From: Natrialba swarupiae
GTDB taxonomy: Archaea > Halobacteriota > Halobacteria > Halobacteriales > Natrialbaceae
Reading direction: 5' to 3'
Length of the DNA stretch: 48,650 nucleotides
NCBI RefSeq assembly: GCF_008245225.1
Contig: NZ_VTAW01000027.1
Coordinates: 1 to 48,650, forward strand
Shown: positions 4,782-48,623 of the stretch, piece after piece
Layout: each line of letters begins with the position of its first letter
Position numbering within the stretch: the stretch's first letter is position 1
Program-made: the position numbers and the translations under genes
The notes under the pieces: generated by a model
Told to the model about the DNA's origin: nothing
The model's database searches: none
What the model saw: only the letters and a program-made list of their open reading frames with translations

Positions 4782-5021
4782 TTACTCGTGGGCGGCGTCC
4801 CACTCCGTGGGTTTCCGAAAGTTACCACACGAGTTGCATTTGATTCGACCCATGGCATCCATCGCGTTATCAAAACTTTCACAGTTAGAGCAGAACCAAC
4901 CGTAGCGACTCACCCCGTCCTGAGACTCGTATGCAACGAGAAACGGTCCCTTCGACCCACGGTCACCGTCGGTGTTCGATACGTAGACTGTCTTCCCGCC
5001 TTCGGTTACAGTCGGTTGCAT
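4782..5021 (-). CDS. DUF5816-like small zinc-binding protein
   Basis: Protein of 79 residues with two CxxC pairs (WFCSNCESF and IKCNSCGNF) that should bind one zinc ion, followed by RKPTEWDAAHE at the C-terminus. I recognise it as a conserved haloarchaeal family (DUF5816). The start at 5021 (MQPTVTEGG) is preferred over 5036 because a TATA-like element (CATAAACC on the minus strand, about 5043-5050) then sits at the leaderless distance. Function unknown; a structural or nucleic-acid-binding zinc ribbon is the likely fold. Confidence 0.75.
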   Translation of the reverse strand: MQPTVTEGGKTVYVSNTDGDRGSKGPFLVAYESQDGVSRYGWFCSNCESFDNAMDAMGRIKCNSCGNFRKPTEWDAAHE

Positions 5022-18412: not shown

Positions 18413-18872
18413 CCGGCCTGAAATAAGCCATCGGCGTGTATAGGGCTTACTCTCGAGGTTGTTCCGGCAGTGATTCGGTCACAGGTCGGATTTTTACTGT
18501 GTCAGCCTTAGTTCAACACCGAATTATCTCGGTAGATTCTCCGACCGCGTCGAGGACGTACGGACGCGGTATTCGTCGTCTACCGATTCGATTCGTCGAC
18601 AGTCGCCATCGAGTGAGAGTCGTTAATCGACGACTATACTGACGTGTAACCAGCTCGAACGGCTCAGGAACTGTCGTTTGAGCCGCCTGAGATGCTCGGG
18701 GCGGTCCGCGAGAACCGAGCGAATAGGCCTCCGAGATGGCTGTCGACCCGGCAGATCTATGCGGACCATAACAATGGTAGTCAGTGGAATCCACCGGGAC
18801 GTGGCATCCGTTTCCGCGGTTTGGCGGTCACTTCGGTGTGGTCGCCACCGGAAACGGCCACGAGAGACAACC
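18413..18872. other. Long intergenic region upstream of cetZ
   Basis: About 460 bp between divergent genes. It contains TATA-like ACTATACT near 18634-18641 and CATAACAAT near 18768-18776, and a CGGCTCA/TGAGCCG inverted repeat (18660-18666 with 18679-18685) able to form a 7-bp hairpin. A frame open from 18678 into cetZ lacks coding character. The length leaves room for regulated transcription of cetZ or a leader RNA. Confidence 0.4.
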
Positions 18873-20033
18873 ATGAAACTCGCACTAATCGGCTTCGGTC
18901 AGGCAGGCGGGAAGATCGTCGACGAATTCCTCGCGTACGACGAGGCGATCGATGGCGGATTCGTCGAAACGGCGATCGCGGTCAACTCGGCAACGACGGA
19001 TCTCCACGGACTCGAGCGAATTCCGAAACGGAACAGAGTCCTGATCGGTCAGGCACGCGTCAAGGGCCACGGTGTCGGCGCCGACAACGAACTCGGCGCC
19101 GAAGTTACCGAGGAGGACATCAGCGAAGTACAGGGCGCGATCGATCGCATCCCGATTCACGAGATCGACGCGTTCCTCATCGTCGCCGGGATGGGTGGCG
19201 GAACCGGCTCCGGCGGTGCTCCGGTCCTCGCGACACATCTCAAACGGATCTACACGCAACCGGTGTTCGGACTCGGGGTTTTGCCCGCAACCGACGAGGG
19301 TGGGATCTACACCCTCAACGCGGCACGATCGTTCCAGACGTTCGTTCGCGAGGTCGACAACCTGCTCGTCTTCGATAACGAGGTCTGGCGCGACGCCGGA
19401 GAGACGGTCGCCGGCGGATACGACCGGATCAACAAGGAAATCGTCGAGCGGTTCGGGCTGTTGTTCGCGGCCGGAGAGGTCCACCACGACGACCACGTCG
19501 CCGAGAGCGTCGTCGACTCCTCCGAGATCATCAACACGCTCGAGGGAGGGGTGTCGACGATCGGGTACGCACGCGAAACCGTCGACAACGCGGACGATGG
19601 ACTCCTCTCGACGTTTCGGGAGACCGAGACGTTCGACGAAGGAACCGCGACGAACCGGATGACGAGTCTCGTCCGAAAGGCGACGCTCGGACGACTCACC
19701 CTCCCGTGTGACGTCGCAAGTGCCGACCGGGGACTGGTCGTCTCGACCGGCCCGCCGGAGCACCTAAATCGCAAGGGGGTCGAGCGGGGACGTCAGTGGC
19801 TCGAGGACGAAACCGGGAGCATGGAGATTCGCGGCGGCGACTACCCACGGCCGAACCAGGACGAAGTCGGAGCGATCGTCCTCCTGTCGGGCGTGACGGA
19901 CGTCCCGCGAATCGACCAACTCCAGCAGGTCGCGATCGAAGCACAGGACACCACCGAGATGGTCCAGGCGAGAGCCGAAGAGGACCTCACCTCGCTAGTC
20001 GATACCGGCGGCGAGCTCGACGCTCTGTTTTGA
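18873..20033 (+). CDS. cetZ: CetZ, tubulin/FtsZ-superfamily cytoskeletal protein
   Basis: GTP-dependent polymer-forming protein of 386 residues. CetZ proteins shape haloarchaeal cells, for example in rod formation and motility, rather than divide them. The nucleotide-binding fold is clear: MKLALIGFGQAGGKIVDEFL at the N-terminus, NSATTDLHGL, the T4 tubulin signature GMGGGTGSGG near residue 110, and the T7-region FDNEVW/NKEIVERFG segments. The motif form and lack of an FtsZ-like C-terminal peptide place it in CetZ, not FtsZ. The start is set by the conserved first strand. No ftsZ or division gene is nearby. Which CetZ subgroup (CetZ1 or other) needs a tree. Confidence 0.94.
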   Translation: MKLALIGFGQAGGKIVDEFLAYDEAIDGGFVETAIAVNSATTDLHGLERIPKRNRVLIGQARVKGHGVGADNELGAEVTEEDISEVQGAIDRIPIHEIDAFLIVAGMGGGTGSGGAPVLATHLKRIYTQPVFGLGVLPATDEGGIYTLNAARSFQTFVREVDNLLVFDNEVWRDAGETVAGGYDRINKEIVERFGLLFAAGEVHHDDHVAESVVDSSEIINTLEGGVSTIGYARETVDNADDGLLSTFRETETFDEGTATNRMTSLVRKATLGRLTLPCDVASADRGLVVSTGPPEHLNRKGVERGRQWLEDETGSMEIRGGDYPRPNQDEVGAIVLLSGVTDVPRIDQLQQVAIEAQDTTEMVQARAEEDLTSLVDTGGELDALF

Positions 20034-23990: not shown

Positions 23991-25229
23991 TCACTCGTCG
24001 TCGTCTCCGTTCTCGAGAACGGCGAGACGCGAGTCGCGTAACAGCACCTTCTTGACGATCGACGGGTTCTCGAGCAGGCGGTGTTTGGCGTGAGCACCGC
24101 GACCACGCCCACGACCCTCGCGTTCGGACTGGATGACGTTGAGGAAGTTTTGCTCCTGGAGAATCTCCTGGACCCGGCGTTCCGAGAGCACGTCGAAGTC
24201 GAGTCGGCGAGCGATCTCCTTGTACTGGTTGTAGATGATCTTCGTCGGAAACTCCTTTTGCGAGCTGTTTTCGGTCAAAATCGTCAGCGAGTAGAGGATC
24301 GCCTTCGCTTGCTGGGGGGAGCCTTCGATCAGTTCGTTGAATCGGTCGGCTTCGGTCTTCTCTTTCGCGTCGCGAACGTGTTCTGCCGTGACTCGGGTAT
24401 CCGTCTGCTTTTTCGCGATTCGACCCGCGTTTCGAAGGATGTCGATCGCCTTTCGGGCGTCACCGTGTTCCTGGGCAGCGAGTGCAGCCGTAAGCGGAAT
24501 GACGTCGTCCGCGAGGACTCCGTCGTGGAAGGCGTCCCGCCGTTTCTCGAGGATTTCGACCAACTGGTTCGCATCGTAGGGTGAGAAGACGAGTTCGTCC
24601 CGAGAGAGGCTGGATTTGACCCGCTCCGAGAGGTGATCCGGGAAGTCGATCTTGTTCGAGATGCCGATGATACCGATACTCGAGTTCGAGATACGGCGGT
24701 TCTCGCCCGCCCGCGAGAGTTTTCGGAGCACTTCGTCGTCTTCGAGCATATCGATCTCGTCTAAGATCACGATCGTGACGTCGGTACAGCGGTCGACGGC
24801 CTGCCAGAGGCGTTTGTAGTAGTCGCCGGTTCCGAGCCCCCGATCCGGAACGGAGACGCCGCTCTCGGCGGGTTCGTTGACGAGTTGGGCGATCGTCTTG
24901 ATGATCGACGCCTCGGTGTTCTGTTCCCCGCAGTCGATGAAGGCGTACTTGACCGTGACGTCGTCGCGTCGGGCCTCCGAGATCACTCGTTTGGTGACCG
25001 ACCGAGAGATGAGTGATTTACCGGTACCAGTCTTGCCGAAGATGAACAGATGGTTGGGTTCGCTCCCGAAGATAGCCGGGTTCAGGGCATCCGCAACCCG
25101 TTGCATCTGCTCGTCGCGGCCGACGATCCGGTCCGGGCCGGGCAGGTGCGTGATCTCGAGCAACCGCTCGTCGGCAAAAACCGGATCGTCGTACCGAAAC
25201 AGCGGATCACGATCGTCGTTAGCGGACAT
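23991..25229 (-). CDS. cdc6: Orc1/Cdc6-type replication initiator
   Basis: Origin-binding AAA+ ATPase of 412 residues that recognises origin repeats and helps load the MCM helicase. Walker A is GKTGTGKS (65-72), Walker B is VILDEID (154-160), sensor 1 is IIGISNKIDFPDHL (about 188), and the C-terminal winged helix covers roughly 310-412 (SLTILTENSSQKEFPTKIIYNQYKEIARRLDFDVLSERRVQEILQEQNFL). The gene points away from the adjacent gene-free region that holds inverted G-string repeats, the usual arrangement in which an initiator lies beside its own origin. Its TATA element (about 25261-25266) lies close to an ORB-like repeat, so autoregulation by binding is plausible. Confidence 0.96.
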   Translation of the reverse strand: MSANDDRDPLFRYDDPVFADERLLEITHLPGPDRIVGRDEQMQRVADALNPAIFGSEPNHLFIFGKTGTGKSLISRSVTKRVISEARRDDVTVKYAFIDCGEQNTEASIIKTIAQLVNEPAESGVSVPDRGLGTGDYYKRLWQAVDRCTDVTIVILDEIDMLEDDEVLRKLSRAGENRRISNSSIGIIGISNKIDFPDHLSERVKSSLSRDELVFSPYDANQLVEILEKRRDAFHDGVLADDVIPLTAALAAQEHGDARKAIDILRNAGRIAKKQTDTRVTAEHVRDAKEKTEADRFNELIEGSPQQAKAILYSLTILTENSSQKEFPTKIIYNQYKEIARRLDFDVLSERRVQEILQEQNFLNVIQSEREGRGRGRGAHAKHRLLENPSIVKKVLLRDSRLAVLENGDDDE

Positions 25230-25260
25230 TGCAGTGAACCGTGTCTTTCCCCCGGATTGA

Positions 25261-25270
25261 TATAAATGTA
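25261..25270 (-). promoter_or_regulatory. TATA element of cdc6
   Basis: TACATTTATA on the minus strand, with TTTATA centred about 34 nt upstream of the cdc6 start codon. The degenerate ORB-like copy at 25271-25293 directly adjoins it. Confidence 0.55.
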
Positions 25271-25293
25271 TAGGGATCTATCGCGGATGTAAA
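25271..25293 (-). repeat. Degenerate ORB-like repeat beside the cdc6 promoter
   Basis: Contains TCGCGGATGTAA (25281-25292), identical to the distal half of the two minus-orientation ORB copies, but the C/G-string half is replaced by TAGGGATCTA. Weak copy; may allow initiator binding at its own promoter. Confidence 0.45.
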
Positions 25294-25410
25294 ATGTGCA
25301 CTGTAACGGCTGGAAACGCTGATTTCGGCCACTCATTGAAATAGGGCCAGAAGACCCACATCGCGCTTCTAACGGCGGCCGGTCTCGAGGATCGATCGAC
25401 GGGCGGTCGA

Positions 25411-25437
25411 CACCGACACCCCCGTCGCGGATGTAAC
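25411..25437 (-). repeat. ORB-like repeat 1
   Basis: On the minus strand it reads GTTACATCCGCGACGGGGGT followed by GTCGGTG: an origin recognition box-like element with a G-string. The 21-bp core is identical to the copy at 25703-25729. Confidence 0.8.
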
Positions 25438-25702
25438 TGGGGAGAGACCGGCGGATTCGGCGGAGACCGACTCGATCACATCGCTCATCCGGTTGACGGA
25501 CCGATTTCGTCTCCCATCCGATAGCTACCGATGGGGGGCTGTCGGTCACCAACTGTCGCCGGATACCCCGTCTCCACCGACACTCGAATGTCAAGCGTCG
25601 CTCGAGGCCAACGAGGCGAGCCCAGTGGCGTTCGGTTTCGCACGAATCCGCCTGCGAGCGTCGATCGTCTCGAGAGCCAGAAACGGGGCCGTGCGATCAC
25701 GA

Positions 25703-25729
25703 CACCCACACCCCCGTCGCGGATGTAAC
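25703..25729 (-). repeat. ORB-like repeat 2
   Basis: Same orientation as repeat 1, 292 bp away, with the identical core ACATCCGCGACGGGGGTGT on the minus strand. Located between repeat 1 and the oppositely oriented copies. Confidence 0.8.
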
Positions 25730-25793
25730 GGAAACGGCCAGTGGGTGGTCGAGAAACTCGACAAAATCGATCGGTTCACGAAATTTCCGGGTC

Positions 25794-25821
25794 GTTTTTC
25801 ATCCGCGACAGTGGTGTGTTC
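25794..25821 (+). repeat. ORB-like repeat 3 (degenerate)
   Basis: Plus orientation; CATCCGCGACAGTGGTGTG matches the core with two changes in the G-string. Faces repeat 2 at a distance of ~65 bp. Confidence 0.65.
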
Positions 25822-25849
25822 TCGACGAAAACCTTCACACGCAATCGGC

Positions 25850-25876
25850 GTTACAAACGCGACGGGGGTGTGTGTC
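25850..25876 (+). repeat. ORB-like repeat 4
   Basis: Plus orientation; GTTACAAACGCGACGGGGGT followed by GTGTGTC, with an intact G-string and changes only in the ATCC part. With repeats 1-2 it forms the inverted arrangement typical of haloarchaeal origins. Confidence 0.75.
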
Positions 25877-25974
25877 CCGTACTGGCATCGATCGACCATC
25901 TACTCGCAGTCTCCATCTACTATCTATCGATACTCGGAGGCCGACAGTGGCGTGATCAACAGTGACACAACCCT

Positions 25975-26035
25975 CTAGTCTAGTTATCACTAGTTCTAGA
26001 TTAGTAACTAGATTAGATAAATTATAAACAATAAC
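25975..26035. other. AT-rich tract, candidate DNA unwinding element and trmJ promoter
   Basis: A stretch rich in CTAG, TAGT and TTA motifs with far lower G+C than its surroundings, containing several short repeats of CTAG(T/A)TTA type. It may be the duplex unwinding element of the origin. Its right end (AAATTATAAAC, 26019-26029) lies ~33 nt upstream of the ATG at 26057 and can also serve as TATA box. Confidence 0.6.
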
Positions 26036-26056
26036 TCGAGACGTAACCAACAACTA

Positions 26057-26905
26057 ATGAACACCGAACCGATCACAAACCGCTACGGACCGACAAATCG
26101 AAACGGTAACAGACTGGCCGTCCCGAGGGTAAACCGAATGACCGAGCAGCCGTCAGCCGACGACCCATCGACTCGGTCGACGGCTCCTACAGTGGCGGTC
26201 GTCGACGCCCAGTCGCCAGGCAACGTCGGAACGATCGCTCGAGCGATGAAGAACTTCGGCTTCGAGGACCTTCTGCTGGTCGACCCGCCAGAACTCGATC
26301 CCGACGGCGAAGCGTACGGCTTCGCGGGCCACGCTCGAGAGGACGTCCTTCCGAACGCGACCGAGATCACGTTCGACACCCTCGTCGAGAACTATCACAC
26401 CGTCGGATGTACGGCAGTTACCAACGAGGACGACCGCAGTCACGTTCGGTTTCCGTTCTCGACGCCGGCAGGCCTCGCCGATCGACTCGCGTCGGTCGAA
26501 ACCCGAACCGCCGTCGTCTTCGGTCGAGAGCGTGTCGGTCTCACTAACGACGAACTGGCTCGTCTCGACGAGATCTGTGCGATCCCGGCGAACGCGGCCT
26601 ACCCCGTCCTCAATCTCGGCCAGGCGGCCACAGTAACGCTGTACGAACTCAGAACGCTCACACTGGGCGACGAGGACACACAACTGCCGGACGTGGAACG
26701 CGTACGGGCCACACCGCCGACCGAGGATCGACTCTACGAACAGTGGTCGTCACTCCTCGAGGAACTCAACCACCCCGAGGAGAAACGCGAGAAGACCATG
26801 CGGATGATACGTCGCGTCTACGGGCGGGCAGACCTGACCGAGCGGGAAGCGAACACGTTCATCGGGCTCCTCCGTCGAGCGACCGAACGTCCCGACCTCG
26901 AGTGA
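26057..26905 (+). CDS. SPOUT RNA methyltransferase, TrmJ-like
   Basis: Predicted S-adenosylmethionine-dependent 2'-O-methyltransferase; archaeal TrmJ modifies position 32 of tRNA. SPOUT motifs are visible: SPGNVGTIARAMKNFG near residue 53, VVFGRERVGLTNDELARLDEICAIP near 152, and PVLNLGQAATVTLYEL near 181, whose knot binds the cofactor. A C-terminal helical extension (EEKREKTMRMIRRVYGRADL) matches the dimer/tRNA-binding domain. The ATG at 26057 is ~33 nt from a TATA element, but the first 27 residues are not family-like, so 26138 (MTEQPSADD) is a serious alternative start. It borders the predicted origin and converges on the DUF7504-type gene. Confidence 0.9.
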   Translation: MNTEPITNRYGPTNRNGNRLAVPRVNRMTEQPSADDPSTRSTAPTVAVVDAQSPGNVGTIARAMKNFGFEDLLLVDPPELDPDGEAYGFAGHAREDVLPNATEITFDTLVENYHTVGCTAVTNEDDRSHVRFPFSTPAGLADRLASVETRTAVVFGRERVGLTNDELARLDEICAIPANAAYPVLNLGQAATVTLYELRTLTLGDEDTQLPDVERVRATPPTEDRLYEQWSSLLEELNHPEEKREKTMRMIRRVYGRADLTEREANTFIGLLRRATERPDLE

Positions 26906-47996: not shown

Positions 47997-48623
47997 TCGA
48001 TTCTGTTCTCTCCGCTCGATTGATTCTACGAAGTCCCGTCTCGACGTTCGGCGTCCAGTTCGACGTTCAGGCGTTCGGTCACGGCGGTGTACCTGAGGAC
48101 GGTCGCTTACCGATCGATCTCTGTTCGGCAGTATCGAGAGCCGGTGCCCCGAATGGGTGCGCTTTCGACCGCGTTCGGAACGAGCCCTGAATCACTCCCG
48201 CCGAATGAAGAGTACAGACACATTATCGATATAGCATTATTTGATTTATTTGGAAGGACACCATCACTCGAGGCGGCCACGTCGTTTGAGCGACGATTGC
48301 ACACAGACGACCGCTGTCGCCACCGATCCGTGACCTCCCGGGCACCCGGTTCCAGCGGTGTACTCGGCTGCGCCCCGATTGCGTCGTCGTCCCGATATCA
48401 TGGTGGACTCACAGACTGAGACCGGTTCCCCGCCAATCTTCCGTTTATCGCCGTGTAGAGAGAGAGTCCCCGACGCTGGCGACGGTGACGTGACGCGTCA
48501 CGTGTTGATCATACTGCGCACGTCGGTTTAGGCAACCGAACGTGATTCGAGTCGCCTGTCTCCCCTAGTACCCTCCCAACCGTGGACAGCTAGGTTATAT
48601 CCTCTGGGCACGTATCTCTAGGA
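47997..48623. other. Right-hand intergenic region
   Basis: About 630 bp without a convincing gene. Open frames at 48087-48419 (plus) and 48107-48304 (minus) lack acidic haloarchaeal composition. An AT-rich island at about 48216-48262 contrasts with its surroundings, and GGTTATAT at 48593-48600 is a good TATA element for the gene at 48624. A short remnant of a decayed gene in 48180-48300 cannot be excluded. Confidence 0.35.

Follow-up and report, generated by a model that had tools for sequence, protein, structure and literature searches.

Several haloarchaeal replication origins lying beside an orc1/cdc6 gene have been described. In Natrinema sp. J7, the vector pFJ5, which carries ARS-5 (predicted oriC9), was recovered as a replicating plasmid at <10 cfu/ug, while pFJ2 gave no transformants and other origins gave some (PMC5350488). 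In Haloarcula hispanica, oriC2-cdc6E serves the chromosome as a second origin, equipped with an initiator and ORBs of its own, and 11 ORBs are found downstream of cdc6E (oriC2D, PMC3936714). The oriCa and oriCb families are also adjacent to orc/cdc6 genes and are scattered over chromosomes and plasmids, in contexts mostly described as not conserved (Wu et al. 2012, PMC3528665); membership of such a family is set at 80% or more identity to its Orc/Cdc6 proteins. Finally, CTAG clusters upstream of haloarchaeal orc1/cdc6 genes, tied to an orphan methyltransferase, were reported earlier (Blow 2016, PMC4752239; also PMC5867850, PMC6471742).

We analysed a stretch of 48,650 nucleotides of Natrialba swarupiae DNA, called the window hereafter. 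The oriC interval, 25230-26056, is the gap between a leftward cdc6 gene (23991-25229) and a rightward TrmJ-family gene (26057-26905). We conclude that this locus is very probably an origin from which the main chromosome is replicated bidirectionally and in dependence on Orc1/Cdc6, and that it ranks second to oriC1. Its features are the following:

23991..25229, minus strand: orc1/cdc6 initiator gene, encoding a 412-aa AAA+ ATPase with a lid and a C-terminal winged helix
25260..25267, minus strand: probable TATA box of cdc6 (sequence reading, and CTTTATTTC at about the same distance in relatives)
25281..25292, plus strand: half-ORB (TCGCGGATGTAA lacking the C/G run), adjoining the cdc6 promoter on its upstream side; probably an operator for autoregulation
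25414..25439, plus strand: ORB1 (26-nt weight matrix)
25706..25731, plus strand: ORB2 (26-nt weight matrix)
25732..25793, no strand: segment between the inverted ORB pairs (62 bp), whose length hardly varies among relatives; may be where unwinding or assembly occurs
25794..25819, minus strand: ORB3, a weaker copy (26-nt weight matrix)
25848..25873, minus strand: ORB4 (26-nt weight matrix)
25975..26035, no strand: AT-rich tract with five CTAG (25975, 25980, 25990, 25996, 26008); may be an unwinding element and a target of CTAG methylation
26057..26905, plus strand: TrmJ-family RNA methyltransferase gene (TIGR00050, above cut-off), the right neighbour conserved in most Natrialbaceae

The cdc6 gene is intact (TIGR02928 match, 411 bits) and the solved structures nearest to its product are the archaeal Orc1/Cdc6 chains 2v1u and 2qby; read from its sequence, the protein clearly has the initiator fold. 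No RNA families or tRNA were found in the 48.6-kb window. A gene for the tubulin-like protein CetZ lies near the origin, at 18678-20033, and a neighbouring gene in Natrinema thermotolerans is annotated FtsZ.

An earlier note on this DNA had described at least four G-string repeats in opposed orientation between 25411 and 25876, two of them with an identical core. The weight matrix bore this out: four ORB-type repeats, made of the core TCGCGGATGTAA and a C/G run, stand beside cdc6 in the order ++--, and the 22-nt core ACACCCCCGTCGCGGATGTAAC is identical between ORB1 and ORB2. Over the whole window the four ORBs scored 32-41 bits, against 6.3 bits for the next best place. When ACACCCCCGTCGCGGATGTAAC was searched at up to 3 mismatches in the 4.2-Mb genome, three sites were found, ORB1, ORB2 and ORB4, all at the cdc6 locus; ORB3 has 4 mismatches to the 22-mer and hence falls outside this search, and a reversed control pattern of the 22-mer gave 0 matches. 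All four full ORBs are located 185-645 bp upstream of cdc6. In contrast with H. hispanica oriC2, the weight matrix detected in the window no ORB-rich titration region, and indeed no ORB, downstream of cdc6. An ORB-type origin is expected to have an adjacent cdc6, at least two inverted ORBs with a G-string, repeats conserved beside orthologous initiators, and an AT-rich element flanked by the ORBs; it should also replicate autonomously or give a marker-frequency peak, and a GC-skew inflection would be a supporting sign rather than a defining one. Here, an intact cdc6 lies directly beside four ORBs with the G-string, two facing two, and the repeats are kept beside orthologous initiators. The AT-rich tract was found outside the ORBs, while the centre between them (25732-25793) is moderately AT-rich, with an AT fraction of about 0.48-0.50 against a background of about 0.36.

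The same note had remarked that the core is unlike the classical oriC1 ORB and had proposed a separate origin class with its own initiator, to be checked by placing the Cdc6 in an Orc tree and comparing adjacent ORBs. Both ideas held. The oriC1 of N. swarupiae is on contig C26; it shares with the window origin facing inverted ORBs with C/G runs, an adjacent cdc6 of its own and a CTAG cluster, but its ORB core is the classical TTTCGAGTGGAAAC instead of TCGCGGATGTAA and its initiator is about 42% identical. Taking the window origin for oriC1 was therefore rejected, since its core is not of the TGGAAAC type and the oriC1 initiator is another gene. The other cdc6 loci of the genome carry the ORB types ACACCGGGTTTCCGGTGAA (C91) and TTACAACTCGAAAACGGGGGG (C16), so that each Cdc6 of the genome has its own ORB type; this linkage of initiator and ORB is observed directly, as is the separate oriC1. 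In the tree, in which the longest branches are unsure, window-type initiators formed one clade of 32 rows (SH-aLRT 99) apart from the three other Cdc6 proteins of the genome, with three Haloprofundus-type rows placed just outside. Since oriC1 lies on a separate contig and differs in both its ORB and its initiator, the window holds a second origin class with its own initiator. Besides the window origin and oriC1, origin-like repeats lie next to cdc6 in two places, L039 2832-4002 and L040 3145-3837 and 5494-5616, each set having an ORB type of its own; this makes four origin classes in the genome.

Beyond the family, initiators 64-77% identical to that of the window in Halorussus, Haladaptatus, Haloferax, Haloprofundus and Halomarina come with the same kind of ORB. 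Beside the Halomarina initiators L070 and L071, the core is changed to TCGCCGCTGTAA and the promoter half-copy is CCGCCGCTGTA, as expected if initiator and ORB change together. The recurrence of the core beside such distant initiators, with its TCGCCGCTGTAA form in Halomarina, argues for an origin. So does the position of the locus: this cdc6 and the oriC1 cdc6 are about 42-55% of the chromosome apart, roughly half a chromosome, in six complete relatives (29% in Natribaculum breve).

A protein search found a cdc6 82-97% identical to that of the window in about 100 of 125 same-family genomes; the initiator is 94-97% identical across many genera, and the nearest named relatives are two Natrarchaeobius strains. 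We compared 75 distinct upstream sequences, 72 of which were long enough to judge ORB order. The earlier note had held that a lack of these repeats beside orthologous cdc6 genes would speak against an origin, and this was not what we observed: the ++-- order was kept in 67 of the 72 Natrialbaceae loci. The start-to-start distance from ORB2 to ORB3 was 88-92 bp in 68/70 loci and that from ORB3 to ORB4 was 54 bp in 54/70 (52-57 in the others), while the ORB1-ORB2 spacing was variable. The weight matrix was trained on part of these loci, which makes the presence of ORBs partly circular, but neither their order nor their spacing is built into it. An intact initiator, ORBs unique in the genome, and an order and near-constant spacing that the matrix did not impose thus point to an origin; this anatomy and its conservation are direct observations. 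In loci with an initiator at least 89% identical, trmJ is in the same place and mostly folP too where the flank is long enough, giving the synteny trmJ - ori - cdc6 - folP. Compared by description, such conserved synteny in Natrialbaceae sets the window origin apart from oriCa and oriCb; the 71 loci found included no contig of Haloferax volcanii or Halobacterium, two taxa with named members of these families. In one locus, L048 (G084), with an initiator 87% identical, the upstream region has one full ORB only and no CTAG, and is possibly a decayed or rearranged origin.

The earlier note had looked for support to GC skew and to autonomous replication in related strains. A clear skew inflection was not found. 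There is no GC-skew minimum at the origin in the window, nor within 200 kb on either side of the ortholog in the complete genome of relative G062. In relative G034, of which 80 evenly spaced 20-kb samples were taken, the global skew minimum is beside oriC1 and the ortholog of the window origin gave no more than a weak step over a short range, which ranks 3-4 of 80 when taken at 150-200 kb. GC skew was dropped as a proof of origin, being weak and contradictory between the two relatives. Autonomous replication fared better. The J7 oriC9 locus, from a different genus, has the same cdc6 and the same neighbours; the PARS-5 primers (PMC5350488) match the N. gari ortholog (L119) at 4990 and 7292 with 0 mismatches, and the 2.3-kb amplicon takes in the entire cdc6 together with the CTAG tract and the half-ORB; it also has four full ORBs, where the authors had called one. 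The origin class is hence already known as a kind, and it is from others' work on the ortholog, cloned as a weak autonomously replicating sequence (PMC5350488), that weak autonomous replication is established. That these primers span ORBs and cdc6 in N. gari, and that pFJ5 replicated, supports an origin.

Two results count against this conclusion, the absent or weak skew signal and the low yield of pFJ5, meaning that, where the host keeps its own copy, the ortholog works poorly as a plasmid origin. Both would also be expected of an origin that is dormant or weak, one that is intact and could fire yet usually stays silent or seldom fires, most chromosome replication being left to oriC1; the skew inflection is unclear in the window and in G062, pFJ5 yielded few transformants (PMC5350488), and both Haloarcula hispanica and Haloferax mediterranei are known to have orc/cdc6 origins that are dormant (PMC3528665, PMC4595724). 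We regard such dormancy as possible but somewhat unlikely, since the near-invariant geometry and the closely similar initiator in many genera argue for steady use. In addition, the pFJ2 forward primer matches the oriC1 region of N. swarupiae (L038:8813) with 2 mismatches in 29, against 10 for the best background match, while the reverse primer has no match in that region; from these primer matches, pFJ2 appears to carry oriC1. As it gave zero transformants, poor transformation is probably shared by the main origin and need not mean poor use. It may reflect incompatibility with a copy already present in the host, which has been demonstrated for H. hispanica oriC2 (PMC3936714) and would explain both cases.

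A half-copy of the repeat at the cdc6 promoter, also mentioned in the earlier note, was located at 25281-25292. It is present in 75/75 distinct relatives, at the same base in 66 of them, and sits 50-56 bp upstream of the cdc6 start in all 75 loci, immediately upstream of the TATA-like CTTTATTTC. The half-ORB is found in Haloferax and Halorussus too, and its pattern has 5 occurrences in 1.6 Mb of background. Judged by this position, it is most likely an operator for Cdc6 autoregulation. A half-ORB abutting the promoter at every locus, together with the known ORB-rich titration regions (oriC2D, PMC3936714), would also suit repeats that serve only as an autoregulatory operator of cdc6 or as a Cdc6-titrating site, with no origin. 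This is highly improbable in our view, because four full ORBs hundreds of bp upstream, inverted and at fixed spacing, exceed the needs of an operator, the unit recurs on plasmids, and the ortholog supports plasmid replication (PMC5350488).

For the chromosomal origin that we favour, we infer binding, melting, autoregulation and use on the chromosome along these lines. Cdc6 from 23991-25229 would bind the four ORBs, which face inward with ORB1 and ORB2 opposite ORB3 and ORB4, and an initiator complex of fixed geometry would assemble over the 62-bp centre, open nearby AT-rich DNA and then load MCM. Cdc6 would probably repress its own gene via the promoter half-ORB. The CTAG array beside ORB4 would be a part of the origin, either as melting DNA or as a mark on new origins made by the conserved CTAG-type methyltransferase.

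Orthologous units are carried on plasmids in Haloferax, Haladaptatus, Haloprofundus, Natrononativus and Natronosalvus. Several of the distant copies sit on plasmids between 48 and 768 kb in size (e.g. 344 kb in Haloferax larsenii and 768 kb in Natrononativus), and trmJ and folP are absent from the distant copies within the flanking DNA examined. That plasmid copies keep the origin without trmJ or folP again argues for an origin. In Natrinema thermotolerans A29, a close copy is found on a record of 987 kb that is labelled plasmid, although its neighbours are the chromosomal ones. The plasmid units could suggest a remnant of an integrated plasmid kept by chance, which is most improbable given that the chromosomal synteny trmJ - ori - cdc6 - folP is maintained and that initiator and ORBs are undecayed. 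Plasmid ancestry is plausible, yet the unit is under selection; the simplest story is that a plasmid-type origin settled in an ancestral Natrialbaceae chromosome, the direction of the move being an assumption.

The AT-rich tract that had been pointed out at 25975-26035 was recovered as well, its best 60 bp being 77% AT. Five CTAG are packed into 38 bp inside it (25975-26011), among 17 in the entire window; the sole other dense CTAG place in the window is the contig end, with three CTAGs in 57 bp (48565-48621). CTAG is rare, at 0.33 per kb in relative G034, about a third of expectation, and the densest CTAG cluster in 1.6 Mb sampled of G034 is at oriC1. Over 69 loci, CTAG density peaked at 35 per kb, 150-200 bp beyond ORB4, while the coding flank has some 0.3 per kb. 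Of all 256 tetranucleotides, CTAG was the most strongly enriched versus dinucleotide-keeping shuffles (354 vs 114, sd 10). The array near ORB4 is retained in Haloferax and Natrononativus copies without trmJ, and the AT tract as a trmJ promoter alone was rejected on this ground. An orthologous methyltransferase (N6_N4_Mtase), presumably CTAG-specific, was present in 18/18 genomes searched; an NCBIfam search of the enzyme assigned no name. Its presence is not sufficient to explain the array, since it is also found in genomes of Natribaculum and Halorussus, which lack the array at this origin.

As in the clusters of Blow 2016 (PMC4752239), the CTAG cluster thus lies upstream of orc1/cdc6, and the genome has an orphan methyltransferase of putative CTAG type. 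What is new here is that the CTAG positions have been mapped to the base with respect to the ORBs, and that the cluster stays with the origin on plasmids. At oriC1 (L038 8081-8419), two inverted classical ORBs were observed with six CTAGs, all between the ORBs, whereas those of the window origin are outside. Tentatively, and with a good deal of doubt, we propose that the CTAG array may be a functional origin module, a methylation-gated unwinding element, in which m4C set by the conserved orphan methyltransferase and hemimethylation after firing would control melting or re-initiation. By analogy, it would do in archaea what Dam/SeqA control does at E. coli oriC. Under the same doubtful proposal, the position of the module may differ, between the ORBs or outside them, and the module would travel with the origin between plasmid and chromosome.

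Altogether, these results provide an unusually clear, base-level anatomy for a second chromosomal origin common to most Natrialbaceae genomes searched, with four ORBs at fixed spacing, a half-ORB and a CTAG array, and they tie the poorly annotated published plasmid origin pFJ5 to a conserved origin class. The occurrence of this class on plasmids of other families makes it a good case for plasmid-type origins turning chromosomal. In the TCGCCGCTGTAA ORBs of Halomarina, initiator and site have apparently changed together, a natural experiment on how specific recognition is. At the window origin, the role proposed for CTAG methylation in the replication of archaea can be put to a direct test, and of most interest there is the possibility that the CTAG array acts as a methylation-controlled unwinding or sequestration element.
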